In this document: positions 1 to 43,213 of the stretch, one piece after another
How the letters are laid out: every line of letters begins with the position of its first letter
How positions within the stretch are numbered: position 1 is the first letter of the stretch
Source of the DNA: Drouetiella hepatica Uher 2000/2452
Lineage (GTDB): Bacteria; Cyanobacteriota; Cyanobacteriia; Elainellales; Elainellaceae
Assembly: GCA_019359505.1 (NCBI GenBank)
Contig: JAHHHD010000015.1
Location: 1-64,000, forward strand
DNA: 64,000 nt
Direction: 5' to 3'
Notes under the pieces: model-generated
Seen by the model: only the letters and a program-made list of their open reading frames with translations
Database searches by the model: none
What the model was told of the DNA's origin: nothing
Made by a program: the position numbers and the translations under genes

Positions 1-2
1 AA

Positions 3-116
3 GCGTTGCGGGAACGAGTTCAAGACCTGTTTGATCAACTGACGCTAGAACAAGTAATGTCGGTTTCGTCCTACAACTTTATTTTGGAAGCACTCTTCTA
101 TGTGGCTTCACATTAA
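3..116 (+). CDS. C-terminal end of an unrecognised protein (partial)
   Basis: The only frame open from the window edge encodes 37 residues ending LFYVASH and stops at 114-116. The reading is ordinary protein-like text with amphipathic helix character (RERVQDLFDQLTLEQV), but no family is recognised. Its start lies outside the window. It sits about 160 bp upstream of the first attC-like site, so it could belong to an earlier cassette; that is inference. Confidence 0.4.
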   Translation, partial: ALRERVQDLFDQLTLEQVMSVSSYNFILEALFYVASH

Positions 117-197
117 ATTGGTATTAACCTTATCTTTAAAGTGAATGTTCTTTTTTATCATCTTATTTTCTACGCTATTAACTATAAAGGAGAGTAC

Positions 198-260
198 ATG
201 GACGTTAGTGAGCTTGGTTTTCCAATTAAGCAATACCCAGCCTGTGCCGAAACAGAGTAA
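198..260 (+). CDS. Possible 20-residue small ORF before the first attC site
   Basis: An ATG at 198 follows a strong Shine-Dalgarno run (AAAGGAGAG, 186-194) and opens a 20-codon frame beginning MDVSELGF and ending CAETE, with TAA at 258-260. It stops 16 bp before the attC-like site at 277, which is where cassette genes normally end. It may be a true small gene, or the surviving head of a longer gene. No function can be assigned. Confidence 0.3.
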   Translation: MDVSELGFPIKQYPACAETE

Positions 261-276
261 TTTGGCGGCAGCAGCA

Positions 277-362
277 GCCCAACACTGCGTTGGTGCGGAC
301 GTTACAGAGGCTATCTGTGAGAGTTCAAAGTTATCTGCCGCCGCTGCGTTTTACCGTTAGCC
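277..362 (+). other. attC-like integron recombination site 1
   Basis: 86 bp bounded by GCCCAAC (277-283) and GTTAGCC (356-362). Inside, the left arm GTGCGGACG faces the right arm CCGCCGCTGC as an imperfect stem with an unpaired A, as in the inner boxes of attC sites. It is one of three sites of exactly 86 bp with similar arms and different centres. The outer right box departs by one base from the GTTRRRY consensus. Confidence 0.6.
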
Positions 363-551
363 CGTTCAGTTGTCTGCGGGGAGAGGGCAGCAACCTTATC
401 GGTTAGTGTTCAAAGTCCAGCTTTACCAGGATATTTAAGGGCGATCGCAAAATCCTCAAGAGTACCCTTAAGGGGAATTCAAAAGTTGGGTTACATCCAA
501 TAATCTCAAACGTGTGAACCCGCTACTTGCTGAAAAGGTGAAAGCGCCCTC

Positions 552-1091
552 ATGTTACAGGCTCCTGAAGTATTTACAACGGAAAGGCTTGTTTTACGCC
601 GCCCTCGCCTCTCAGATGCAGAGGCAATCTTTGAATACGCCAGCGATTCAACAGTCATTCACTACATGGATTATGGTTCTCGTACTGATGTCAGCGAGGT
701 TGTAAAATCCCTTGAGAGCCGTCCGGCAGAATGGGAATCAGGTAGTTTCTCCTGGGTACTTACAGTCAAGCCCGATGATCGCCCCATTGGCACGATCGGT
801 TGTTGGTTAGAAGATCATGCGGCTGGTTTTGGTTATCTGCTCAATCAGAAATATTGGGGAAAAGGTTACGCAACAGAAGCTGCTCGTACGGTTGTGAACT
901 GGGCAATCAGCTTGCCAGAAATTTATCGGGTTTGGGCAACTTGCGATACGGAGAACCTTGCTTCAGTTAAAGTTCTGGAGAAGAGTGGTTTAGTGTGTGA
1001 AGGGAGGTTGCGTTGTTATCTGATCCGCCCTAATATTTCAGCAATTCCTAGAGATGCGTTTATGTATGCTAGGGTGCGTGGTGCGAGCTAA
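552..1091 (+). CDS. GNAT family N-acetyltransferase (RimJ/RimL type), cassette gene
   Basis: 179 residues, normal length for the Acetyltransf_3 group that transfers acetyl from acetyl-CoA to an amine such as a protein N-terminus or small molecule. The opening TERLVLRRPRLSDAE is the usual RimJ-like start; the acetyl-CoA loop is near residues 96-110 (YWGKGYATEAAR), followed by NLASVKVLEKSGL, the conserved C-terminal Asn/Ser region. An AAAGGTG lies upstream of the ATG. The gene is flanked by attC-like sites and its stop overlaps the second one, the arrangement of an integron cassette. GNATs are common cassette cargo. Substrate is unknown. Confidence 0.85.
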   Translation: MLQAPEVFTTERLVLRRPRLSDAEAIFEYASDSTVIHYMDYGSRTDVSEVVKSLESRPAEWESGSFSWVLTVKPDDRPIGTIGCWLEDHAAGFGYLLNQKYWGKGYATEAARTVVNWAISLPEIYRVWATCDTENLASVKVLEKSGLVCEGRLRCYLIRPNISAIPRDAFMYARVRGAS

Positions 1092-1171
1092 CCCTTCATG
1101 GTAGCGGACGGTCGAAAGCCCCTGGTGCTGAGTTCGAGGTTACTTGCCGCCGCTGCATTTTGCCATTGGGC
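1086..1171 (+). other. attC-like integron recombination site 2
   Basis: 86 bp from AGCTAAC (1086-1092) to ATTGGGC (1165-1171). Left arm ATGGTAGCGGACGG faces right arm CCGCCGCTGCATTTTGCCAT, giving an imperfect stem with an extrahelical A. It overlaps the stop codon of the acetyltransferase gene. The left outer box is degenerate and the right one has A instead of the first G of GTTRRRY. Confidence 0.6.
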
Positions 1172-1235
1172 TGCTTTAAGCTATATACAAGGAGAATATT
1201 TCAAGGTTGTGGGTAAGCAGGAGAAATTCATAAAA

Positions 1236-1727
1236 ATGAAAAAAAGCAGCATTTGGCAAACAATACAATACCTCATATTTCCTGGAGTTCCTGCTAGTCT
1301 CTGCATCTTGTTTGGAACAGCTGTATCAATCCGAGGACTCTCAGATTATCAAACTGCGGGTGATTTCTGGAATAATGCTATTGAAACTAGAGGCACCATC
1401 GTTAAGACAAGTCTTGAATCTAGAACAGCGTCGAGTGGTGGTATTCCCATATCGCATGCAGTTAACGTCTCCACTATTCAATTCATAACTCAACATGGAG
1501 AGATAATCACATTTGAAGGCGATGATGATATGTGTGTCGATCGTCCGAACTCTAGTCTCTGCATGGGAAGAGAAGTAGAGATTGTATATGACTCTAGTAA
1601 TCCTCACCAAGCAATAGTCAAAGGAAGTGCTAGTCCTTTGGCTAGACTCAGGTATGGCATTGGGTGGGGCATGTTTATCTTGCTTAGTGGAATAGTAATT
1701 ATGGTTGCTCCCACTCGGCATAACTAA
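1236..1727 (+). CDS. DUF3592-like membrane protein, cassette gene
   Basis: 163 residues from the ATG at 1236, chosen because AGGAG (1219-1223) precedes it and because a longer frame would run through the attC site. A first membrane segment lies near residues 13-35 and a second near the C-terminus (YGIGWGMFILLSGIVIMV). Between them is a soluble part with the DUF3592 look: TRGTIVKTSLES, a strand around IITFEGDDD, and GREVEIVYDSSNPHQAIV. Function of the family is unknown. It is the second gene in the attC-bounded array and ends about 34 bp before site 3. Base composition is lower in GC than the chromosomal genes nearby, which fits transfer. Confidence 0.65.
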   Translation: MKKSSIWQTIQYLIFPGVPASLCILFGTAVSIRGLSDYQTAGDFWNNAIETRGTIVKTSLESRTASSGGIPISHAVNVSTIQFITQHGEIITFEGDDDMCVDRPNSSLCMGREVEIVYDSSNPHQAIVKGSASPLARLRYGIGWGMFILLSGIVIMVAPTRHN

Positions 1728-1760
1728 TGAAGTTGAAGAGTGCTAGGACAAGCAATTGTA

Positions 1761-1846
1761 GCCCAACGACGTTGGAGCCGAACGCCTTGAGCTGAATTAG
1801 TTAGGGTCGCAAGATTATCTGCGTCGGCTCAACTATGCCATTAGGC
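1761..1846 (+). other. attC-like integron recombination site 3
   Basis: 86 bp from GCCCAAC (1761-1767) to ATTAGGC (1840-1846), the clearest of the three. Left arm GTTGGAGCCGAACGC pairs with right arm GCGTCGGCTCAAC, with one unpaired A, and the outer boxes GCCCAAC and ATTAGGC are near complementary. The spacing of boxes matches sites 1 and 2. No cassette gene follows; the next gene faces the opposite way. Confidence 0.65.
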
Positions 1847-1944: not shown

Positions 1945-3036
1945 TCAAGATAGGGCGATAGTCCCGACTGGTACATCGAGCGTAGACATATCGATCACCA
2001 GACGATAGCGCACCTCTCCCCGATCGAGCCGTTCAAACCCATCCTCAATATCCATAGCCGAGATAATTTCGACATCAGCAGAGATATGGTGCTGGCTACA
2101 GAAGTCCAGCATCTCCTGCGTTTCAAGCGTACCTGCCACCCCTGAGCTTGCCAGCCGTCGCCGTCCCAACGTCAGGAAGACGGGACTGAAATCCAGATTT
2201 GCGGGAATGCCAAGACAGCAGAGCGTCCCGTCGAGTTTGAGCGATCGCAGATACGGGTTTAGAGGATGACGAGATGAAACAGTATCGAGAATGAAATCGA
2301 AGCGTGAGGCTTGCTTTGCCATTTGCGCTTCGTCGGTTGAGAGGATTGCCTCATCTGCTCCCAGCGCTTTTGCATCGGCAAGCTTATCTGGCGAGGTACT
2401 GAACAGCACAACATCAGCCCCCAGCGCATGCGCGAATTTCACTGCCATGTGACCTAGACCGCCCAAACCGACAATCCCAACCGTCTTGCCAATCCCTACA
2501 TCCCAATGACGTAGGGGTGACCAAGTGGTCACTCCTGCACAGAGCAGCGGTGCAACGCTTGCCGGATCAAGACCAGCGGGGAGATGGTAGGCAAACTGAG
2601 CGTCGACGACATAGTCATTGGAGTAGCCGCCGCGCGTGATGCTGCCATCCTGCCTGTCGATGCCATCATAGGTGGTGGTCACTCCCTCCAAGCAATATTG
2701 TTCCAGCTGGCGTTGGCACGAAGAGCAATGACCGCAAGAATCGACGATCGTGCCCACCGCCACCGCATCACCGACTCGGAACGTTGTGACATCTGTGCCG
2801 ATCGCCGTCACCTCACCCACGATCTCATGCCCTGGAACGAGCGGAAAGCGGCTTACCCCTCGAATGGCGTGCAGATCACTATGGCAGATGCCACAGAACT
2901 GAATTTTTATGGTGATGTCGGTCGGTCGCAATTGCCGACGCTCAAATGCCCAGGGAACAAGGCGATCGCCCTGATTGAGAACCGCAAGTCCGTAAGAGAG
3001 ATCGATCGCAGTGTTCTGCTTAGTCGTTTCTGACAT
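1945..3036 (-). CDS. Zinc-dependent NAD(P) alcohol dehydrogenase (YahK/CAD-like)
   Basis: 363 residues, full length for the cinnamyl-alcohol-dehydrogenase branch of medium-chain dehydrogenases, which interconvert aldehydes and alcohols. Visible are the catalytic zinc ligands C48 (CGICHSDLH) and H70-E71 (GHEIVGEV), the four structural-zinc cysteines C101, C104, C107, C115, and the dinucleotide fold GLGGLGHMAVK. The gene lies 47 bp downstream of the SDR gene on the same strand, probably co-transcribed, with an AraC regulator divergent to both. A role in detoxifying aldehydes is an inference from family and context. Confidence 0.88.
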   Translation of the reverse strand: MSETTKQNTAIDLSYGLAVLNQGDRLVPWAFERRQLRPTDITIKIQFCGICHSDLHAIRGVSRFPLVPGHEIVGEVTAIGTDVTTFRVGDAVAVGTIVDSCGHCSSCQRQLEQYCLEGVTTTYDGIDRQDGSITRGGYSNDYVVDAQFAYHLPAGLDPASVAPLLCAGVTTWSPLRHWDVGIGKTVGIVGLGGLGHMAVKFAHALGADVVLFSTSPDKLADAKALGADEAILSTDEAQMAKQASRFDFILDTVSSRHPLNPYLRSLKLDGTLCCLGIPANLDFSPVFLTLGRRRLASSGVAGTLETQEMLDFCSQHHISADVEIISAMDIEDGFERLDRGEVRYRLVIDMSTLDVPVGTIALS

Positions 3037-3083: not shown

Positions 3084-3824
3084 CTAGAAGGCGCTTGCTG
3101 TCGGGCGAACAATGATTTCATTGACATCCACATCTTCAGGTTGAGCGATTGCATATAAAACGGCTCTGGCGATCGCATCTGGCATGAGTGCAGTCTTGCG
3201 AAGTTCTTGTAAAAAACCTTTGCTGGTATCATCCGTGATATCAGAGCCAAGTTCGGTTTCGACTACGCCAGGAGAGATGAGGGTAACGCGGATATTTTTT
3301 GACTCCTGACGCAGCCCATCAGAGATTGCCCACACCGCATATTTTGTAGCGGAATAGACGGCGCTGGTGGGTCCCACCATGTGCGCGGCGATCGATGCCG
3401 TATTGATAAATTGTCCACCGCCTTGCGCTTCCATGATTGGCAGTCCCGCCGCAATGCCATTCAATACGCCGTGGATGTTGACATTAATCATGTTGTCCCA
3501 CTCCTCGACTTTTAAGGCATTCATCCGCGATAGAGGCATCACACCTGCATTGTTAAAAATCACATCCACGCGACCAAATTTATCTTTTGCAAAGTGAATG
3601 AATGCTTTCACATCCTCGCGATTTGTGACATCGACTGCTTTGAATTCTGCTGTGTTACCTTGATCACGAATTTCCTCGACAATCTTGCCGAGCTTCTCTG
3701 TCCGCCGCGCCCCCAAAACGACTTTTGCGCCATTTTGAGATAGCAATCGAGCGGTTGCTTCACCAATTCCACTACTGGCGCCAGTAATAGCGACAACTTT
3801 TTCGTTAATGTTCAACATAGTCAT
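3084..3824 (-). CDS. SDR family oxidoreductase
   Basis: 246 residues, classical short-chain dehydrogenase. The cofactor motif TGASSGIG is at 14-21, NNAG at 91-94, the catalytic Ser at about 144, and YSATK gives Tyr157 and Lys161. The C-terminal part contains SPGVVETELG as in the YdfG-like group. Two ATGs are possible (3824 and 3818); AGGA upstream fits either. It is first in a two-gene unit with the alcohol dehydrogenase and divergent from the AraC regulator at 3981. The substrate cannot be read from sequence. Confidence 0.88.
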   Translation of the reverse strand: MTMLNINEKVVAITGASSGIGEATARLLSQNGAKVVLGARRTEKLGKIVEEIRDQGNTAEFKAVDVTNREDVKAFIHFAKDKFGRVDVIFNNAGVMPLSRMNALKVEEWDNMINVNIHGVLNGIAAGLPIMEAQGGGQFINTASIAAHMVGPTSAVYSATKYAVWAISDGLRQESKNIRVTLISPGVVETELGSDITDDTSKGFLQELRKTALMPDAIARAVLYAIAQPEDVDVNEIIVRPTASAF

Positions 3825-3980
3825 TTTTCCTGATTGATCTGCTTCTATTTACATTAGAAGTAAAAGCAAGAATGCTAAATACACAGACCTCGCAAGTTAT
3901 TGCCTAATCCTCCAAGTTGGAATTTTTTGAGTGCTCTATAATGCTGAATGGAGCAGGATTCAATGAGTCGATAGAACAAC

Positions 3981-4913
3981 ATGACAACTGAAATCATTGG
4001 CTCAGTTATCAATCAAGGTGAGATCGCGAAGCAGTTCCAAGAATTAGCGGCACTGATCACCCGGCACACGGATGGCAAGGGGGATGGGTTTCATCAAACC
4101 GCGATTGCTCAATTGGAATTTCAGCGAGAATCTTTAGTTTCCACTGCACTACGCGGTGTCTGTGACCCGATCTTTGCAATTCTAGTTCAAGGTAGAAAAG
4201 AACTGTTGCTGAATGAGGAAATCTATCGGTATGGTGCGGCTCAATACTTGGTTGTTTCAGTTGATTTGCCGTTAAGCGCATTTATTACAGAGGCGACTCC
4301 CGACAAGCCTTATCTAGGATTTAAACTAACGTTAGATTCCCATCAGCTGTGTGACCTAATTACTCAAACCAGTACGATTCAGCGTCAGCAAGAGAACGCT
4401 GTGAGAGGACTGTTTGTCAGCACTATTGACATCCCATTGCTCGATTGCGTTCTCAGACTGACAAAGCTTTTAGATACGCCACAGGATATTCCAATCCTTG
4501 CGCCGCTAATGATTCGTGAAATCTACTATCGCCTTTTAATGAGTGAGCAAGGCGAAGCAGTTCGTCAAATTGCCACATCTAGCAGCAATATGCAACGGAT
4601 TGCAGAGGTGATAAAACGGCTCAAGGCTGATTTTGTCCAACCGTTGCGGATTGAGGATCTAGCAGGACAAGCGAAGATGTCTGCCTCCTCATTTCATCAC
4701 CACTTCAAAGCCGTGACAGCTATGAGTCCGCTGCAATATCAAAAGCAATTAAGACTATTAGAAGCGCGCCGTCTAATGCTTTCCGAGAACTCCGATGCGT
4801 CTAATGCTGCCTATCAGGTGGGGTATGAGAGTGCTTCACAGTTCAGCCGTGAATATTCTCGGATGTTTGGTGCGCCGCCGATTCGGGATATTGAACAGTT
4901 ACGAATAGCCTGA
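3981..4913 (+). CDS. AraC family transcriptional regulator
   Basis: 310 residues: an AraC_N-type sensor domain (about 25-180, with PIFAILVQGRKELLL) and a C-terminal double helix-turn-helix (about 205-305, with IEDLAGQAKMSASSFHHHFK and AAYQVGYESASQFSREYSR). It is divergent from the SDR-ADH pair with a 156-bp shared intergenic region. AraC_N regulators are often placed beside SDR/ADH genes they control; regulation here is inferred from that layout. Confidence 0.85.
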   Translation: MTTEIIGSVINQGEIAKQFQELAALITRHTDGKGDGFHQTAIAQLEFQRESLVSTALRGVCDPIFAILVQGRKELLLNEEIYRYGAAQYLVVSVDLPLSAFITEATPDKPYLGFKLTLDSHQLCDLITQTSTIQRQQENAVRGLFVSTIDIPLLDCVLRLTKLLDTPQDIPILAPLMIREIYYRLLMSEQGEAVRQIATSSSNMQRIAEVIKRLKADFVQPLRIEDLAGQAKMSASSFHHHFKAVTAMSPLQYQKQLRLLEARRLMLSENSDASNAAYQVGYESASQFSREYSRMFGAPPIRDIEQLRIA

Positions 4914-4920
4914 ACATGAC

Positions 4921-6324
4921 TCAGCGATCGTTCAAAAAATCTTGACACAATCGCCGAAAGTGATCGCCCCTCTGCTCAAAATTAGGATATTGGTCAAAGC
5001 TGGCGCAGGCAGGTGAAAGCAAAACCACTTTTGCTCCAAGCTGGTGCGCTAGTTCTGCCCCTCTTGTCACGGCACAATCCATCGTTTCCACAATTTCTAT
5101 ATTGGCGTAGCCCACCTGTTTGAGGCGTTCTGCAAAGGCAGGAGCGGCTTTGCCAATCAGCAAAACGGCGATCGCTCTGTCATGAATAGTTTGCAGCCAG
5201 CCTGTATCATCTCCGGCTTTAGCCTCTCCCCCGGCAATCAAAATCACGGGTGCTGCTACTGAAGATAAGCCGACTTGCGCCGCGTCATAGTTTGTCGCTT
5301 TGCTGTCGTTAATAAAATCAATTCCCTCCCATGTGCAGAGATATTCTAGGCGATGGGGTACTCCAGGGAAAGCCGCAACTGCTTCAGCGATCGCCTCTCG
5401 TTCAATTCCGGCAAGCCTTGCCGCTAAGACTGCCATCAGCAGGTTCTGCTGGTTATGTGCTCCCACCATCCGTAAAGCTGAGGCTTCGACGATCGGTTCA
5501 CCGAGAGCCATTACCCACCCGTTCTCTAGGTATGCCCCGCGATCGGCATCGCCCAAGAGTCCGGCTCTACCTGTTACGCTCGTCCAGCAAGCCTGTGACC
5601 ACTGATCAGAGGCTCCCCGCAAATAGGGATCATCTCCGTTGAAAATCTGATGCTGCGACTGTTTTAGCAGCTGGGCTTTGATGCTGTAGTAGTTCTCTAG
5701 GGTTTTGTGCCGACTGAGGTGATCAGGGGTGAAAGTCGTCCAGATGCCAATTTGGGGAGCAAGGGTGGAAGAAGCCTCAATTTGGTAGCTGCTGAGTTCT
5801 GCGATCGCCCAGTCAAGCTGAAAGTCAACCTGACCCGTGGCAGACGCCGGATAGAGTGTGTCGAGCGCCAGATCGCAAGCCGCATAGCCAATATTTCCAC
5901 AGGCAGGGGCATGAAGTCCGGCAGCCTGAAAGATGGCGGCAATCAGAGCCGTTGTGGTGGTCTTGCCATTGGTGCCTGTAATACCCACCCAGGGATAAGA
6001 CTGGAGCGATCGCCATGCCAATTCCATCTCGCCGATTGTTTCGATGCCTAGCGATCGGGCTTCTATAAGCGCAGGCAGATTCCAGGGTACACCAGGGCTA
6101 ACCACAATCCGCTGCATCAGATCAGGCTGGGGCTTAAGCCGATGCCCCAACTGAACGGCAATACCCTTTGTTTGCAGTTCCTGCTGAGTCTGCTGGAGCG
6201 CATCAGACGTTCCAGAGTCGCTGATGGTGACTTGCCAACCTACCTGGTGTAGCAGGTGAGCAGCGGCAATTCCCGATCGCCCCAACCCTATCACATAGGC
6301 ACTCCTCGTCTCAGCTCTAAGCAT
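4921..6324 (-). CDS. murD: UDP-N-acetylmuramoyl-L-alanine:D-glutamate ligase
   Basis: Cytoplasmic ATP-dependent ligase that adds D-glutamate to UDP-MurNAc-L-Ala in peptidoglycan synthesis. About 467 residues from the ATG at 6324. Near the start is the Rossmann motif [12 protein letters not shown]; then the Mur ATP loop GTNGKTTTT (117-125), NDSKATN and a C-terminal [18 protein letters not shown], which is typical of MurD rather than other Mur ligases. The frame extends to a TTG at 6363 without a ribosome site; the ATG start is preferred but not certain. It ends 7 bp from the AraC gene, convergent. Confidence 0.93.
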
Positions 6325-6670
6325 TATTTCAATGGCCACTTCGGATTTAGCGACTTCAGGCAAAGCAGAATCATAGTACCGCAGTGAGGGTTCACCCCGG
6401 CATTTGAGCGGTGAATTTGTATCGATGTAAAGCCAAATTGGACAGAAATTGCGACCTAATAAAATTTTTTATAGTCAAAAGGCGAGTTTGCCCTCACTAA
6501 TGTAGTCTCAGATGCAAAATGATTTCTTCAGAATTGGTGCAATCATTCAAGCCGTGGTTTTGATAAATGGTTTCCGCATCAGTTTCCCGCAACAATGCCC
6601 AGATCTTAAAAATTTGGTGTTTCTGATGCGGCTGTGTACTGAATCTCCCCGATCTTTAGCATTTGCCCGT

Positions 6671-6698
6671 GTAAACTCAGAGAGATTTCTGAGTTTAC
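6671..6698. promoter_or_regulatory. Perfect 11-bp inverted repeat upstream of amt
   Basis: GTAAACTCAGA (6671-6681) and its exact complement TCTGAGTTTAC (6688-6698) are separated by 6 bp, 45 bp before the amt start codon. The length and position fit a protein-binding operator or a stem in the 5' leader. It does not match the NtcA consensus GTA-N8-TAC. Confidence 0.5.
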
Positions 6699-6743
6699 GG
6701 TATTATTTACCACAACGTACGTTTCAGACATATCTTAAGGATC

Positions 6744-8183
6744 ATGCTCGTGTTGAAGAAAGTTTTCCTGACTGTACTACTTGCCATCTGTTTCTTTGGT
6801 GGTCCTCTGGCAGACGCTGCCTGGGCACAAGACGATAGGGTCGCGGGTCTGCTTGACAGTGGTGACACGGCTTTTATGTTGATTTGCTCGGCGCTGGTTC
6901 TGTTCATGACGCCTGGACTAGCGTTTTTCTACGGGGGCTTGGTGAAGTCTCGCAATGTCCTCAACACCATGATGATGAGTCTGGTGCTAATGGGTATTGT
7001 GGGAGTCACTTGGGTGTTGTGGGGCTATAGCATTGCTTTTGCGCCAACTGATGTTTCCCCGATTGCCGTGGCTGCTGACGGTGTGCCCACGTTTACCTAT
7101 ACGTCAAATCCAATTATCGGTAGCCTTAGATGGCTGTTTCTAGGAGGTGTTGAGGCAGGTCAACCTGATCCAATCGGGTATGCACCTACCATTCCTCACC
7201 AGGTTTTCATGATCTACCAGATGATGTTTGCCATCATCACCCCGGCACTCATCTCTGGAGCGATCGTTGAGCGCATGAGCTTCAAGGCATACTTCTGGTT
7301 TGTCTTGCTGTGGTCTACGCTGATTTACGCTCCTCTGGCTCACTGGGTCTGGGGTAAGGGTTTCATTGGGATTAATATCGGCGCTCTCGACTTTGCAGGC
7401 GGCACGGTGGTTCACGTTAGCTCTGGTATTTCAGCGGTCGTCGCCGTTTTGGTTCTGGGTGCACGCAAAAATTATCCGGCTCAACCCACCGTTCCTCACA
7501 ACGTGCCTTTCGTGATGTTAGGGATTGGAATGCTCTGGTTCGGCTGGTTTGGGTTCAATGCTGGAAGCGCCGTGGCGGCAGGCGGATCTTTGGCAACGGT
7601 GGCTTTCGTGTCTACAGCGATCGCTCCTGCTGCTGCGGGTCTGACTTGGGTCGTGATGGAATGGGTGCTGCGCGGTAAGCCGACTGCGGTCGGTATTGCC
7701 AGTGGTTTCCTGGCTGGTCTAGTGGGAGTTACACCTGCCGCTGGTTTTGTGACCCCGATCGGCGCAATCTTGATTGGCTCTATCACCTCAGTGGTTTGCT
7801 TCTTTGCAGTCAGCCTGAAAGCGAAGCTTCAGTTTGACGATTCGCTGGACACTTTCCCAATCCATGGAGTTGGGGGAACGGTTGGAGCGCTGCTCACAGG
7901 CATATTTTGTACCAAGGCGGTGAATGCTGCTGGTTTTGATGGTCTGCTGTACGGCAACCCAGGTCAGCTTTGGAACCAGTTCTTGGGAGTGGCTGTCACC
8001 TATATTTTTGCGGGTATCGGGACGTTCCTCATTCTTAAGTTTCTGGCGCTATTTATGGATCTGCGTGTCAAGCCTTCCATTGAAGATCAGGGCTTGGATG
8101 TCAGCGAACATGGTGAAGAAGGTTACGGCGAGGAATTTGTGGGCGGAATGACCCTAGTCGAGGATTCTATCCCGCAGACGTAG
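6744..8183 (+). CDS. amt: Ammonium transporter (Amt family)
   Basis: 479 residues. Conducts ammonium/ammonia across the plasma membrane. A signal peptide (about 1-28, cleavage after AWA before QDD) precedes eleven membrane segments as in bacterial Amt proteins. Family motifs are visible: FFYGGLVKSRNVLN near the N-terminus, FAGGTVVHVSSG, and FPIHGVGGTVGALLTGIF. The C-terminal tail is acidic (SEHGEEGYGEEF). No glnB follows; two strong hairpins lie just downstream. Nitrogen control is expected for the family, but no clean NtcA box is visible upstream. Confidence 0.95.
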   Translation: MLVLKKVFLTVLLAICFFGGPLADAAWAQDDRVAGLLDSGDTAFMLICSALVLFMTPGLAFFYGGLVKSRNVLNTMMMSLVLMGIVGVTWVLWGYSIAFAPTDVSPIAVAADGVPTFTYTSNPIIGSLRWLFLGGVEAGQPDPIGYAPTIPHQVFMIYQMMFAIITPALISGAIVERMSFKAYFWFVLLWSTLIYAPLAHWVWGKGFIGINIGALDFAGGTVVHVSSGISAVVAVLVLGARKNYPAQPTVPHNVPFVMLGIGMLWFGWFGFNAGSAVAAGGSLATVAFVSTAIAPAAAGLTWVVMEWVLRGKPTAVGIASGFLAGLVGVTPAAGFVTPIGAILIGSITSVVCFFAVSLKAKLQFDDSLDTFPIHGVGGTVGALLTGIFCTKAVNAAGFDGLLYGNPGQLWNQFLGVAVTYIFAGIGTFLILKFLALFMDLRVKPSIEDQGLDVSEHGEEGYGEEFVGGMTLVEDSIPQT

Positions 8184-36080: not shown

Positions 36081-37142
36081 ATGACTTTTTTAATGCAGAT
36101 GAGGCTGAGGCTACCTATTTCTCTGGTCACTGCTGCCATCCTGTTTGTGTCATCCTGTAGCGCTCCATCTTCAACCTCCTCCCCATCAGCCGCTTCAGGG
36201 AGTCCAGTCGCAGGGTCGGCAGCCTCCGTTAAGGTTGATGGGTCTAGCACAGTTTTTCCCATCAGCGACGCAGTTGCCAAAGAGTTTCGACAGTCCAATC
36301 CCAGTGTAGAGGTGGCGGTTGAATCTTCTGGGACGACGGGCGGATTCAGAAAATTCTGTGCTGGAGAAACCGACATTAGCAATGCCTCTCGTCCCATTTC
36401 TACTGAGGAGATCGCGACATGTCGGAACGCAGGAATTAGATATGTTGAATTGCCGATCGCCTTTGATGCCCTGACGGTAGCGGTTAATCCCCAAAACGAT
36501 TGGGCAAAAGACTTGACGGTAGAGGAGCTAAAAAAACTTTGGGAGCCTGCCGCTCAGGGCAAAATCAAAACCTGGCAGCAGGTGCGCTCCTCGTTTCCTA
36601 ATCAGCCAATCACCCTCTATGGAGCGGGGACAGACTCCGGCACCTACGACTACTTCGCAGAGGTCATCATGGGCGGAGCCGATACCCGGACTGACTACAC
36701 GGGCAGCGAAAATGACGATGTTTTGGTGGAAGGCATTGCCAAAGATCCGACGGCTCTGGGCTTCTTTGGTCTAGCTTACTTTGAGAAGAATCAGAATCGT
36801 CTCAAGGCAGTGGCGATCGATGATGGCAAAGGCAAAGGAGCCGTTTTGCCTTCGCGCCAGACAGTCGAGAGCGCTGCTTATCAACCGCTGTCGCGTCCGC
36901 TGTTTATCTATATCAATCTTCAGGCATCCCAGAAAAACACAGGCTTGCGGGACTTCGTGCAGTTCTACCTGAAAAACGCTAAGCGCATCGTGGAAACGGT
37001 GGGCTACGCGCCGCTGCCCCAAGAAGCCTATGACATTGGCTCAGTCCACCTCTACAAGGGTGAAGTCGGCACAGCTTACGACGGCAAGCCTCAGCCTTAC
37101 CTGACGATTCGGGAGGTGCTTCTGAAAGAACAAACTTTCTAA
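36081..37142 (+). CDS. Phosphate-binding lipoprotein (PstS/SphX-like) in the ars cluster
   Basis: 353 residues. Lipobox FVSSC with Cys26, Ser-rich linker, then VDGSSTVFPISDAVAKEF, SSGTTGGFRKFCAGETDISN, and AGTDSGTYDYFAEVI, the phosphate-binding loops of PstS. Captures phosphate in the periplasm for the Pst transporter. No pstCAB genes are here; its position between arsR and the GAPDH gene suggests induction by arsenate, where a phosphate-selective receptor would be useful. That role is inferred. Confidence 0.9.
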   Translation: MTFLMQMRLRLPISLVTAAILFVSSCSAPSSTSSPSAASGSPVAGSAASVKVDGSSTVFPISDAVAKEFRQSNPSVEVAVESSGTTGGFRKFCAGETDISNASRPISTEEIATCRNAGIRYVELPIAFDALTVAVNPQNDWAKDLTVEELKKLWEPAAQGKIKTWQQVRSSFPNQPITLYGAGTDSGTYDYFAEVIMGGADTRTDYTGSENDDVLVEGIAKDPTALGFFGLAYFEKNQNRLKAVAIDDGKGKGAVLPSRQTVESAAYQPLSRPLFIYINLQASQKNTGLRDFVQFYLKNAKRIVETVGYAPLPQEAYDIGSVHLYKGEVGTAYDGKPQPYLTIREVLLKEQTF

Positions 37143-37187
37143 AGCCGTTCGATCAGATCTCGCTATTTTCAAGTGCAGGAAGAAATC

Positions 37188-38198
37188 ATGAGTGTAAGGG
37201 TTGGGATTAATGGGTTTGGGCGGATCGGGCGATTGGCGCTCCGGGCTGCTTGGGGCTGGTCGGAACTAGAGTTTGTCCATATCAACGAGCTGAAGGGCGG
37301 CGCGGTCACGGCTGCACATCTGCTGAAATTTGACTCTGTACATGGACGCTGGGCACCTGAAGTCGAAGCCAAAGACGGGAAGGTGTGGATTGATGACAAA
37401 TCCCTTAGCTTCAGTGAATGCGCTTCACCCAGCGAAGTCTCTTGGGACGATCTGGGCGTCGATCTGGTGCTAGAGGCATCCGGCAAGTTCCGCACGACCG
37501 AAACCCTCGACCCTTACTTCAAACGCGGGGTGAAAAAGGTAATTGTTGCGGCTCCGGTCAAACAGGGCGCGCTGAACATTGTCATGGGCGTGAACGATGA
37601 CCTCTATCAGCCGGATCAGCATCACCTTTTAACTGCCGCTTCCTGCACCACCAACTGTCTCGCGCCCGTAGTGAAGGTGATCCAGGAGGGGCTGGGCATT
37701 CGGCATGGCGTGATTACGACGATTCACGACAACACCAACACCCAAACGATCGTCGATGCCCCCCACAAAGATCTGCGCCGCGCCAGAGCTACCAGCCTGT
37801 CGCTGATTCCTACCACCACGGGATCGGCAACGGCGATCGGTCTAATCTATCCAGAACTCAACGGCAAGCTGAATGGCTTAGCCGTGCGGGTGCCGCTACT
37901 CAACGCCTCTCTGACTGACTGCGTTTTTGAAGTCGCGCGTCCTACCACCGTCGAAGAAGTTAATAGCCTGCTGAAAACCGCTTCTGAGCAAGAGCCGCTT
38001 AAAGGCATTCTGGGCTATGAGGAACGTCCTCTGGTGTCGATCGACTACAAAGACGATCCGCGCTCTGCCATCATCGATGCCCTGTCTACGATGGTGGTGG
38101 ATGAGACGCAGGTGAAAATCTTTGCCTGGTATGACAATGAGTGGGGCTATGCCAACCGCATGGTGGAACTGGCCAGAAAAGTTGCGTTGAGCCTTTGA
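37188..38198 (+). CDS. ArsJ-associated glyceraldehyde-3-phosphate dehydrogenase
   Basis: 336 residues from the ATG at 37188 (AGGAAG before it). NAD-binding start [18 protein letters not shown] and the catalytic SCTTNC with Cys153. Located 24 bp before arsJ. In known ArsJ systems such a GAPDH uses arsenate instead of phosphate and makes 1-arseno-3-phosphoglycerate, which ArsJ exports. A house-keeping role is less likely given the location. Confidence 0.92.
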
Positions 38199-38222
38199 CC
38201 TTTACATTCTGACGCTAAACCC

Positions 38223-39479
38223 ATGGCTACCGCCTCTCAAGCTAATCTACGCAACTACATGCTGGTGACGATCGCCTACTGGGGCTTCACGCTCACAGAT
38301 GGCGCGCTGCGAATGCTGGTGTTGCTGTACTTCTACAACATTGGCTACACGCCGCTGCAAATTGCGTTCCTGTTTTTGTTCTACGAAATCTTTGGCGTCA
38401 TCACAAACTTTTTGGGCGGCTGGATTGGCTCTCAGTTGGGGCTAAAGGTGACGCTGTACGCCGGGATTGCGCTACAGGTTTTGGGTCTGGGAATGCTGGC
38501 TTTCCTCGATCCGGGCTGGTCGCAGGGGGTGGCGATCGCCTATGTCATGACGGCTCAAGCTTTCTCAGGCATTGCCAAAGACTTGACCAAAATGAGTTCC
38601 AAAAGCGCCATTCGTTTGGTCGTGCCCCAGGAGGCGCAGTCTTCTCTGTTTAAGTGGGTGGCAGTGCTGACCGGATCAAAGAATGCGTTAAAGGGGGTAG
38701 GCTTTTTCCTCGGTGCGGCTCTGCTGGAAGTCTTTGGGTTTAAGAATGCGCTGCTGATCATGGCGGCAGGACTAATCGCCGTTCTGTTGACAGGATTCTT
38801 CTTGCCTAACGGCATGGGCAAAATTAAGAAGAAGGTGGGCTTTAGTCAACTGTTTTCCAAAAGCCGAGAAATCAATATTCTTTCGGCTGCTCGGTTCTTT
38901 CTGTTTGGCTCCAGGGATATCTGGTTTGTGGTGGGCTTGCCTGTGTTCTTACGTGGACCATTAGGCTGGTCGTTTTACCAGGTGGGCGGTTTCATGGCTT
39001 GCTGGGTGATCGGCTATGGCTTGGTGCAGTTCCTGGCTCCGGTGCTGCTGAAGCGATTTGGCAACGGGCAGCCGCCGAATGCCAACACCATTCAGTTTTG
39101 GACGTTTGCCCTGATCGCAGTACCCGCAGGAATTGCGATCGCCCTTCAGATGAACCTTCCCCCAGACGCAGTAATTGTCGTGGGTCTGACGATTTTTGGG
39201 ATTGTCTTTGCCTTCAACTCAGCCGTGCATTCCTATTTGGTGCTGGCATACACTGATGACGACAAGGTTGCCCTCAACGTTGGCTTCTATTACATGGCGA
39301 ACTCTGGTGGGCGATTAATCGGCACGGTTCTGTCGGGTCTGGTGTTTCAGTTTTTTAACCTAGTAGGCTGTCTCTGGGTGTCTAGCTTCTTTGTATTAGC
39401 AGCAGCGCTGATCTCATTAAAGCTACCTGACCCGCAACCCCAAAAAGCGATCGCCTGGAAAGCCGGAGAGGGAGATTAG
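38223..39479 (+). CDS. arsJ: Organoarsenical efflux MFS transporter ArsJ
   Basis: 418 residues, about twelve membrane helices. Starts [20 protein letters not shown] and contains [20 protein letters not shown] and [18 protein letters not shown], typical of ArsJ. Exports 1-arseno-3-phosphoglycerate, which decays to arsenate outside. Directly after the GAPDH gene and 1 bp before acr3, so certainly one transcription unit. Its last codons and the acr3 start are copied at 41545-41680. Confidence 0.92.
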
Positions 39480-39480
39480 A

Positions 39481-40536
39481 ATGAAGACCCAAGCGCCAAG
39501 ACTTTCATTTCTCGATCGCTTTCTCACTCTGTGGATTTTTCTGGCAATGGCGATCGGGGTGGGGATAGGCTATTTCTTCCCTGGAGTTGAGGGAGTCATT
39601 GACCAGTTTCAGGTGGGTGCGACCAATATTCCGATCGCGATCGGGTTGATCCTGATGATGTATCCGCCGTTGGCTAAGGTGCGGTACGAGGAATTGGGCG
39701 ATGTCTTTCGCAACGGCAAGGTTCTGGGTATTTCGCTGGTACAAAACTGGATCATTGGTCCGTTCCTGATGTTTTTTCTGGCGATTATCTTTCTGCGCGA
39801 CTACCCAGAATATATGGTGGGGCTAATCCTGATTGGGTTGGCGCGATGCATTGCTATGGTGGTCGTCTGGAGCGACTTGGCACGGGGCAACACGGAATAC
39901 ACGGCTGGGCTAGTTGCCTTCAACAGCATTTTTCAGGTGATTTTCTACAGCCCTTATGCCTGGTTTTTTATTAGCGTCTTGCCGCCGCTGTTTGGGTTAC
40001 AGGGCAGCGTGGTCAATATCAGCATTGCCGAGATCGCCAAAAGCGTGATGATTTATCTTGGCATTCCCTTTCTGGCTGGATTTCTGACGCGCTTTTTTCT
40101 GGTGAAAGCAAAGGGCAGGCAATGGTATCACGAGGAATTTGTGCCAAAAATCAGCCCGATTACCCTGGTTGCCCTACTGTTTACGATCGCCGTCATGTTT
40201 AGCCTCAAAGGCAATCTGCTGGTGCAAATTCCGCTAGATGTAGTTCGGATTGCCATCCCGCTGATCCTCTACTTCGTCCTCATGTTTTTTATCAGCTTCT
40301 ATATGGCATGGCGGGTCAAGACGGATTACTCCAGAGCCGCTAGCGTGGCGTTTACGTCCGCAGGCAATAATTTTGAGCTGGCGATCGCGGTCGCCATTGC
40401 CGTATTTGGCATCAATTCGGGTGCTGCCTTCGCAGTTGTCGTCGGGCCTCTAGTAGAGGTGCCGATGTTGATTAGTCTAGTCAATGTTTCTCTCTGGTTT
40501 CAGAGGCGTTATTTTAAGGTCGCATCGCTGGATTAA
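39481..40536 (+). CDS. acr3: Arsenite efflux transporter Acr3
   Basis: 351 residues, ten membrane helices. Conserved Cys123 in [34 protein letters not shown], and [18 protein letters not shown] are Acr3 hallmarks. Pumps arsenite out by proton exchange. Follows arsJ after one base. A family B repeat lies 8 bp after the stop. Confidence 0.95.
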
Positions 40537-40544
40537 TTGTGTTA

Positions 40545-40642
40545 TGGCATTACGTAATTGAGTTAGGACGAGTTATTTTTTGAGAGCCGCGCGGAGCGCG
40601 GCTCTCAAAAAATAACTCATTGGATCTAAGCGCGTAGCGCTA
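40545..40642 (+). mobile_element. MITE-like family B element, copy B1
   Basis: 98 bp flanked on both sides by TA (40543-40544, 40643-40644). Left end TGGCATTACGTAATTG, right end GCGCGTAGCGCTA. The core is a perfect 23-bp hairpin, 40570-40592 with 40596-40618, loop GGA, reading GAGTTATTTTTTGAGAGC outward in. It sits between acr3 and the phosphatase gene. Confidence 0.8.
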
Positions 40643-40665
40643 TATCTAGAGAGAGGTTCAGAACG

Positions 40666-41127
40666 ATGGAGCAACAAGCTATTCAGCCGATCCTGGAAAC
40701 CCTATGGTGGGTGATTCCAGACAAGCTAGCGGGAGTGCGCAAGCCGACGGCAGAGGAATTGGCTGAGCTACAGGCTGCGGGAGTGGGGGCGATCGTCTCC
40801 GTGCTGGATGATTCCTCTAATCTGGATTTGTATCAGCAGATCCAAATTCCTTACCGCTGGCTGCCGACTAAAGGGGGTACGCCTCCCAGTCAAAAGCAAG
40901 TTCAGGAGCTACAGAATTTTGTGGATAGCCAAAATCTTTTGGGTCACGCGGTGGCGGTTCACTGTACTAACGGCAAGCGCCGAACCGGAACTCTCTTAGC
41001 GGCATACTTGATTGCTGGCGGTTTGTCTTACCCAGATGCGATGCAGATGATCCATCGCGCTAATTCTGACCTCGATCTTCGAGAGACTCAAATCTTATTC
41101 TTGCAAACCTTGGCAGGAGTCAGATGA
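40666..41127 (+). CDS. Dual-specificity-type protein phosphatase in the ars cluster
   Basis: 153 residues. The CX5R signature HCTNGKRRTG has Cys100 and Arg106; upstream Asp49/Asp50 (VLDDSSNLD) may be the general acid. Cys-based phosphatases of this fold can act on phosphotyrosine or be recruited for arsenate. It overlaps the next phosphatase gene by 4 bp (ATGA). Function in arsenic handling is inferred from position. Confidence 0.8.
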   Translation: MEQQAIQPILETLWWVIPDKLAGVRKPTAEELAELQAAGVGAIVSVLDDSSNLDLYQQIQIPYRWLPTKGGTPPSQKQVQELQNFVDSQNLLGHAVAVHCTNGKRRTGTLLAAYLIAGGLSYPDAMQMIHRANSDLDLRETQILFLQTLAGVR

Positions 41128-41588
41128 AAACCATCCTCTTCCTTTGTACGGGCAATTACTACCGCAGTCGATTTTCCGAGCATTGGTTCAACCACCTGGC
41201 AACCCAGCAGAATTTAGACTGGCGCGCCACATCTCGCGGATTAGGGCTGCACCGCGAGAACAATAATGTGGGAGCAGTTTCGCCAGACGTGATTGCCGTT
41301 CTGAAGGAGCGCGGTGTGCAGGTGCCAGATAGCCTAAGAAATCCTACGCAAGTTACCGACACAGACTTAAGGGCAGCCGATCACATCATCGCTGTGGATG
41401 AGCCGGAACACCGACCGTTGGTAATTGCTCAATTTCCTGAATGGGTCGATACGGTGGAATATTGGCGGGTGCGCGATTTGGATGAAACCACTACAGAGTC
41501 TCCCTTAATTCAGCTTGAACGGAACATTCAGAAACTCGTCGAACTGCTGAAACTGCCTGATCCGCAGCCCCAAAAAGCGATCGAATGA
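41124..41588 (+). CDS. Low-molecular-weight phosphatase / arsenate reductase-like protein
   Basis: 154 residues. P-loop CTGNYYRS with Cys8 and Arg14, as in LMW protein tyrosine phosphatases and ArsC of the thioredoxin-linked type; NPTQVTDTDLRAADHIIAVD fits this fold. The context suggests arsenate reduction to arsenite for Acr3. The last 13 residues [13 protein letters not shown] copy the tail of ArsJ, so the gene end has been replaced by recombination. Confidence 0.75.
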   Translation: MKTILFLCTGNYYRSRFSEHWFNHLATQQNLDWRATSRGLGLHRENNNVGAVSPDVIAVLKERGVQVPDSLRNPTQVTDTDLRAADHIIAVDEPEHRPLVIAQFPEWVDTVEYWRVRDLDETTTESPLIQLERNIQKLVELLKLPDPQPQKAIE

Positions 41589-41589
41589 A

Positions 41590-41680
41590 AAGCCGGAGGT
41601 GTAGATTAAGATAAAGCCCCAAGCCCCAAGCGCCAAAACTTTCATTTCTCGATCGCTTTCTCACCCTGTGGATTTTTCTG
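41590..41680 (+). pseudogene. Relic of the arsJ/acr3 junction
   Basis: AAAGCCGGAGGTGTAGATTA then CCAAGCGCCAAAACTTTCAT and TTCTCGATCGCTTTCTCACC align with 39460-39543, the end of arsJ and first codons of acr3. The start ATG has become ATA and the copy breaks off after GATTTTTCTG. It marks a partial duplication of the ars genes. Confidence 0.85.
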
Positions 41681-41742
41681 TTCTATAACTAGACTTGAGA
41701 CAGTTCTCCTATTTGAAAAAGTAACAATACAACAAGAGTACG

Positions 41743-42507
41743 ATGAGAGCTATTTTCTTAAATTTTTTAATTCTCTCACTGTCTAGTTTAGCGACATTTC
41801 AGATGAACTTCTATACTGTGGCGACCGCATCCCCTGATCCTGTTACTCAACAGACAAATTTAGAAGAACAGGCGAGAGGTTATGAGCTTATCTTGCAGCA
41901 AGAACCCAATAATCAGACTGCACTTGCGGGACTGCTAAACATTCGTCTTCGACAAGGTAGGTTTGAGGCAACAATTACTCCGTTAGAAAAACTGGTTGAA
42001 TTAAACCCTAATAGAGTCGAGTACGGAATTCTTCTAGCACAGATGAGGCAACAGTTTGGCAACGTTGAGGGATCTGTGCAAGCCTATCGCGATGTCTTGG
42101 CAATTCGACCACTAGAAATTAGAGCCCTCAGTGGATTAATTTATCTTATGGTGCAGCAAAACCGTTCAGGAGAAGCCATTAGCCTTTTACAAGACACATT
42201 ACAGAATGCTGGAACCCTTGATACCCAGAATACTGGAACCCTTAATACCTGCCAGTCTAGAACAGATATCATTGCAGTTCAAATGTTATTAGGATCAATT
42301 CATGCTAAACAGGGGCAATTCAATGAGGCGATCGCTGTCTACAACCAGGTAATTGAGAGCGATCGCCAAGATTTCCGTCCAGTTCTAGGCAAGGCATTAG
42401 TCTTACAACAGCAGGAACGTATTAAGGAAGCTAAGGCTCTGTTCGCCGTTGCTGCGTCCCTTGCTCCTGAACAGTTTAGAGATCAAATTAACCAACTGTC
42501 TAGATGA
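41743..42507 (+). CDS. Exported TPR protein
   Basis: 254 residues. Signal peptide about 1-29 (FLNFLILSLSSLATF), then TPRs (RGYELILQQEPNNQTALAGL; ITPLEKLVELNPNRVEYGIL; EAIAVYNQVIESDRQDFRPV). A short near-repeat GTLDTQNTGTLNT lies about residue 158. A protein-docking role is expected for TPRs. It stands between the phosphatases and arsH, but nothing in the sequence ties it to arsenic. Confidence 0.8.
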   Translation: MRAIFLNFLILSLSSLATFQMNFYTVATASPDPVTQQTNLEEQARGYELILQQEPNNQTALAGLLNIRLRQGRFEATITPLEKLVELNPNRVEYGILLAQMRQQFGNVEGSVQAYRDVLAIRPLEIRALSGLIYLMVQQNRSGEAISLLQDTLQNAGTLDTQNTGTLNTCQSRTDIIAVQMLLGSIHAKQGQFNEAIAVYNQVIESDRQDFRPVLGKALVLQQQERIKEAKALFAVAASLAPEQFRDQINQLSR

Positions 42508-42559
42508 AATGTCTCAGTTATGATGAATTCGCTTTAGCAAGAACGCTAAAAGTTGATGT

Positions 42560-43213
42560 ATGACTAGATTGGATCACCCGCCCAGAATTTTGTTTTTGTA
42601 CGGCTCTCTCCGGGATCGCTCCTACAGCCGACTAGCTGCCGAAGAAGCGGCTCGGATTATTCAAGAATTTGGGGCAGAGGTGCGGTTTTTTGACCCGCGT
42701 GAGTTGCCTCTCTATGGCAGCGTGCCCGACACCCATCCCAAAGTGCAGGAATTGCGAGAGTTAAGCCTCTGGTCTGAAGGGCAGGTCTGGTCTAGCCCAG
42801 AGATGCATGGCACGATCACAGGCATCCTGAAAAATCAGATTGACTGGATTCCCCTCAGCATCGGTGCCGTCCGACCCACTCAGGGTAGAACCTTGGCGGT
42901 CATGCAGGTGAGCGGCGGATCGCAATCGTTCAACGCCGTCAACACGATGCGCTTGCTGGGGCGCTGGATGCGGATGTTCACCATTCCCAATCAGTCCTCG
43001 ATCGCCAAGGCATACCAGGAGTTCAACGACGACGGCACAATGAAAGACTCGCCCTACCGCGATCGCGTGATTGACGTGATGGAAGAACTCTACAAGTTCA
43101 CGCTGCTCCTGCGGGACAAGGTGGATTATTTGACCGATCGGCACAGCGAACGCAAGGCAAAGCTTGAGCGCAAGGAAGAGAGCGATCGTCCAAGTCTGCA
43201 CCCGAAGCTTTGA
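42560..43213 (+). CDS. arsH: ArsH NADPH-dependent FMN reductase
   Basis: 217 residues. Flavodoxin-like: FMN loop [20 protein letters not shown], then [20 protein letters not shown] and [20 protein letters not shown], the known ArsH signature. ArsH oxidises trivalent organoarsenicals and has quinone/azo reductase activity. Last gene of the arsenic region. Confidence 0.95.

Follow-up and report, generated by a model that had tools for sequence, protein, structure and literature searches.

The left edge of the analysed DNA is very probably a CALIN derived from a cyanobacterial sedentary chromosomal integron, in which the cassettes are stranded, the integrase gene intI is broken, and cassettes have been dispersed by the steps proposed below. 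The DNA, hereafter the window, is a 64,000-nucleotide stretch that covers positions 1–64,000 of one contig (C66 in our labels), and its position 1 is the contig end. Three attC sites lie within 1.6 kb, with no IntI in the window and the contig end to the left. The earlier note had suggested either a CALIN or the margin of a chromosomal integron; this reading is supported, and CALIN is the correct label because neither attI nor intI adjoins the array and the genome's single intI, a pseudogene, lies on a different contig, for which reason the cassettes would be stranded in this species. The features of the array and its flanks are as follows, with scores of two attC covariance models, R1 and R2.

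1–120, plus strand: 3' part of a transposase gene of IS630 type (final 37 codons, 3–116) at the contig end, truncating cassette 1
117–260, plus strand: remnant of the cassette 1 gene, covering the C-terminal ~46 codons; the full-length protein has 470 aa and no clear family
277–362, plus strand: attC site 1, crossover G356/TT357; R1 75.2 bits, R2 77.1 bits
357–1165, plus strand: cassette 2, the GNAT acetyltransferase cassette, 809 bp; 96% identical copy at C19:31159–31973
552–1091, plus strand: GNAT acetyltransferase, 179 aa; PF13302, 1.6e-32; TAA stop inside R'' of site 2
1086–1171, plus strand: attC site 2, R' ATTGGGC (A1165/TT); R1 78.7 bits, R2 69.0 bits; GTT in the C19 copy
1166–1840, plus strand: cassette 3, 675 bp, bounded by the crossovers of sites 2 and 3
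1236–1727, plus strand: small protein, weakly DUF3592-like; PF12158, 20.0 bits, E 0.0011, gathering score 25.3
1761–1846, plus strand: attC site 3, the last of the array, R' ATTAGGC; R1 67.8 bits, R2 55.3 bits
1847–1944, no strand: junction of array and chromosome; no later attC in the window
1945–3036, minus strand: alcohol dehydrogenase, the first chromosomal gene 3' of the array

The three 86-bp segments described earlier have exactly the coordinates of the attC sites listed. GCCCAAC, quoted in the earlier note as the left box throughout, is the left box of sites 1 and 3, but site 2 has AGCTAAC. The right boxes (GTTAGCC, ATTGGGC and ATTAGGC in sites 1, 2 and 3) are as noted, and so are the complementary inner arms with one extra A (GCGG-A-CG, GCGG-A-CGG and GAGCCG-A-ACGC). 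Site 1 contains the core boxes RYYYAAC...GTTRRRY with one deviation; in sites 2 and 3, R' begins with ATT. Among 54 attC matches of this genome, R' starts with GTT in 42 and with ATT in three. As the C19 copy of site 2 has G before the crossover, we infer that ATT at sites 2 and 3 is a later decay of the crossover base.

A pattern-and-arm finder gave too much noise and did not recover sites 1 and 2, so covariance models were adopted instead. Since the training set of R1 consisted partly of the window sites, R2 was built from 42 sites, all from other species. The R2 scores of the window sites correspond to E-values of 2e-19 to 4e-13; the best other R2 match in the rest of the 64-kb window has 13.6 bits, and the array ends with site 3. 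Pairing of the R/L arms covaries over the 42 other-species sites and over the 54 own sites, with a covariation score reached in none of 500 shuffles; in the 42-site alignment 89% of R/L cells are paired and both sides are changed in 61 cells, the alignments being fitted to the model and hence biased towards its structure. The paired L''/L' arms, the extra unpaired base, the covariation and the score of an independent model identify the window segments as attC sites rather than chance similarities. Folding of the bottom strands, proposed earlier as a check, was carried out and gave them only a slight advantage over the top strands (free folding of the three sites, z −0.7 to −1.9), which is unremarkable and not decisive by itself. 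A search of Rfam (cmscan) gave no attC match, one tRNA being the sole find.

The cassettes themselves behave as mobile units. Positions 109–344 of the window share 95% DNA identity with an intact cassette of another genus (locus L180, contig C486 of genome G020), in which ORF 3830–5242 is whole and encodes the same C-terminal peptide as the cassette 1 remnant. Identity of murD between the two genomes is 72% versus 95% for cassette 1, which points to cassette sharing between genera. Site 1 matches the G020 site in 66 of its first 68 bases and in only 10 of its last 18, and these last 18 bases match site 2 at 13 positions, which suggests that site 1 is a hybrid formed by deletion between two attC sites. 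In the C19 copy of cassette 2, identity stops exactly at the crossovers, at CCGTTAGCC at one end and at the TT of R' at the other end, and the copies on C66 and C19 have different neighbours. A HAD hydrolase cassette is likewise present in copies on C19 and C26 (96.7% identity over 829 bp, ending at the crossover). Both the GNAT and the HAD unit have thus been duplicated exactly between G^TT crossovers, as expected of gene cassettes.

The GNAT acetyltransferase that had been noticed between sites 1 and 2 is confirmed by its Pfam match; its stop lies within site 2. For the protein described as DUF3592-like the open reading frame is present, but the Pfam match is weak and lies below the cut-off. 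Comparison of the GNAT genes on C66 and C19 yields dN 0.015 and dS 0.12, and from the resulting dN/dS of 0.12 the enzyme seems to have been kept functional. No full attC was found by covariance model at the GNAT relatives in other cyanobacteria. Broken attC remnants were seen by eye at the copies from Nodosilinea (L183 and L184; 84% and 80% amino acid identity), one split by ~90 bp and one consisting of the left half only (L183 3500–3760, L184 3500–3600).

On the left, the array is cut by the end of a mobile element that is 93% identical at the DNA level to C7:232–360 of the same genome and 90% identical to a sequence of another genus. The transposase fragment shows 94.6% amino acid identity to the transposase ORF of the C7 copy; among the own-genome loci compared, matches are on C7 and C66 only. 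From the DDE-type motif of its transposase, we take the element to be of IS630 type. The left side of the array is the contig end inside this element, and no attI or intI adjoining the window array is present in the assembly. On the right, homology of the sister species G006 to the 3' flank of the window begins at 1979. No empty site for the window array was found in that genome, where the 3' genes stand beside mutL; in the genome studied here, unlike in G006, mutL is on another contig. Further along the window, a group of genes at 36081–43213 encodes a PBP-like binding protein, GAPDH, an MFS transporter, an SBF-family (ACR3-like) transporter, a phosphatase and an FMN reductase, and looks like an arsenic-handling operon.

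No integrase had been seen in the window; indeed, none is encoded within the 64 kb, which begin at a contig edge and for this reason show none. The genome has one intI, at C52:1090–2037 on the minus strand (TIGR02249, 295 bits summed). It is split over three reading frames by breaks near 1590, 1490 and 1257, and it keeps the IntI-type region YPNANREWIWQFVFPSSQ. Judging from these three frame changes the gene is a pseudogene; assembly errors could produce them in principle, but three within ~350 bp are unlikely. Other tyrosine recombinases of the genome fall below the integrase cut-off, and an intact intI, the mark of a functional integron, is absent from the genome. The species G007 of the same genus has an intact IntI of 322 aa (TIGR02249, 460 bits; match to the IntI4 structure 2a3v, 5e-92). 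Upstream of intI across the family there is a conserved motif like GTCTATTAATAG; TTRRRY comes next, and beyond it the sequences no longer resemble each other. This motif, ending in G^TTRRRY, is the attI. The own copy is next to intI, at ~C52:2271, and is lacking beside the window array. The first attC past it (C52:3380–3468) has the orientation known from integrons, pointing away from intI.

The draft genome (6.4 Mb, 87 contigs, completeness 99.8%) contains the HIP1 octamer GCGATCGC 94 times versus 1.7 expected, and the closest relatives of the GNAT protein are cyanobacterial; for these two reasons the earlier assignment of the DNA to a cyanobacterium is correct. The order-wide comparison covered 36 genomes of one cyanobacterial order. 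Genomes compared individually include the sister species G006 and G007, G020 from another genus, and the single-contig genome G029. A genome-wide covariance search, which had also been proposed, found 42 attC sites on 21 contigs of the own genome (R1, E<1e-3), that is, ~40 further sites on 20 contigs other than that of the window. The 86-bp segments score far above background and similar sites are found elsewhere in the genome, the opposite of the two outcomes named by the earlier note as speaking against its reading. Cassette genes at the own attC sites encode a PIN-type toxin, a DUF433/DUF5615 pair, a HAD hydrolase, short-chain dehydrogenases, regulators and a methyltransferase, several of them named by eye from translations. 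At the level of the order, attC sites (E≤1e-5) are present in 36 of 36 genomes and intI over the cut-off in 18 of 36, at least 11 of which have a full-length copy free of stops.

Near-identical attC sites (CCATAATTC...TTGGAGC) at C62:103–185, C71:103–186, C26:33181–33264 and C9:41917–41999 lie ~100–120 bp from contig ends; the assembly probably breaks off at these places because a cassette end is present in multiple copies. A second attC subtype, in which the R-L spacer is complementary too (CCGCTT/AAGCGG, GCCCAT/ATGGGC) and apparently covaries, was observed at C19:29551, C52:3380 and C72:82173. A candidate cobalamin riboswitch was seen by eye directly after the attC at C25:27916–28002 (minus strand).

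We propose that the tyrosine recombinase IntI would capture and shuffle cassettes, each of one or few genes plus attC, by recombining folded attC bottom strands at G^TT. Dispersal would result from IntI-made insertions at attI, at attC and at non-attI chromosomal G^TT sequences (attG type), and would be followed by insertions of IS elements, rearrangements and decay of the R' box. An insertion of the last type is observed on another contig:

L032 (own C38:86000–97000) 5864–8067, minus strand: cassette of 2,204 bp with one attC

Its genes encode an HNH nuclease, an XRE regulator and a C5 methyltransferase, likely a type II restriction-modification set, so that defence genes could be spread by cassette insertion too. 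The cassette is inserted at CATAG^TTAGCC, which is uninterrupted, to the exact base, in G006 (CATAGTTAGCC) and G007 (CATAATTTAGCC). With its cassette in a chromosomal G^TT outside any att site and the empty site known, C38 is at least one well-supported attG-type insertion, in which IntI would be the agent. On C69, too, a cassette has no counterpart in the orthologous spacer of G007, but its ends are less exact. Empty-site searches gave rearranged synteny only for the cluster at C52:83–85 kb, and a match downstream only for C43, C47 and C72.

The window array might have reached its place by the same route, as an attG-type insertion at a chromosomal G^TT. C38 is an exact precedent in the same genome and C69 a second consistent case, but the lack of an empty site for the window array stands against this, and a rearrangement or an IS-mediated move fits equally; we consider the route a serious possibility while leaning somewhat against it. 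The window array could also be undispersed: the far end of a single large array linked to intI, broken up in the assembly at IS copies and near-identical attC sites. Draft assemblies are known to split integrons (PMC9024848), the contig starts within a repeated IS, and several contigs (C62, C71, C9 and C26) end near attC-bearing repeats. However, on C52 a single good attC (at 3380) comes after intI and the next match appears only at 83 kb, and the other own clusters are inside long contigs between chromosomal genes. In G029, 50 sites form 13 clusters, only two of them beside an intI, and 38 of the 50 sites are far from both intI genes; in G030, none of ten sites in eight clusters is closer than ~50 kb to intI. 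A split array is therefore unlikely. That the segments are other attC-like inverted repeats (MITE, REP or terminator) with no integron history fits their multiple copies, fixed length and modest folding, but is rejected as highly improbable given the conserved R boxes, the L-arm covariation and extra base, the presence of intI and attI in the family, the gene-sized spacing and the duplications whose ends fall exactly on G^TT.

A CALIN of a sedentary chromosomal integron thus remains the preferred reading of the window edge. A wider and rather doubtful proposal is that integrons of this order act mainly as genome-wide dispersers: IntI would put cassettes at attG-type sites, so that most cassettes would come to rest away from the integron and, maintained by selection, persist after intI is lost. 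Integron research has dealt mostly with Proteobacteria, and attG insertion outside integrons has been demonstrated mainly in experiments. With attC in all genomes compared, intI over the cut-off in half of them and the empty site of C38, the order gives a natural series for measuring the dispersal and stranding of cassettes. Integrons and CALINs as such are already known, and the interest for specialists is in order-wide dispersal with intI loss and in the base-exact empty site.

A CALIN is a cluster of attC sites lacking an integron integrase (Cury 2016; IntegronFinder 2.0, PMC9024848). Like a CALIN, the window array consists of two or more consecutive attC sites with a single small gene in each interval and has no adjoining intI; it differs in that a pseudogenized intI and an attI motif survive elsewhere in the genome and that R' is ATT in two of its three sites. 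Cyanobacteria are already among the listed carriers of integrons (PMC2426708), and an attC model of Cyanobacteria type is available (PMC8352920). The chromosomal integrons of cyanobacteria share intI, attI and attC arrays with the system described here, whereas in this order attC clusters are genome-wide in every genome compared, half of which lack intI over the cut-off. The lone C38 cassette at a non-attI chromosomal G^TT has the geometry reported for attG insertions, as far as the work of Loot 2024 (Nat Microbiol 9:228) is described in PMC11023631 and PMC12444791; that work, by these accounts, used an experimental E. coli library, whereas C38 is a natural event fixed between cyanobacterial sister species. 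The sedentary chromosomal integrons of Vibrio and Xanthomonas are similar in the homogeneous length of attC, in acetyltransferase and toxin-antitoxin cassettes, and in an IntI akin to the IntI4/VchIntIA type of Vibrio (2a3v). In contrast to their one large array, the cassettes here are found in many short clusters and singletons.
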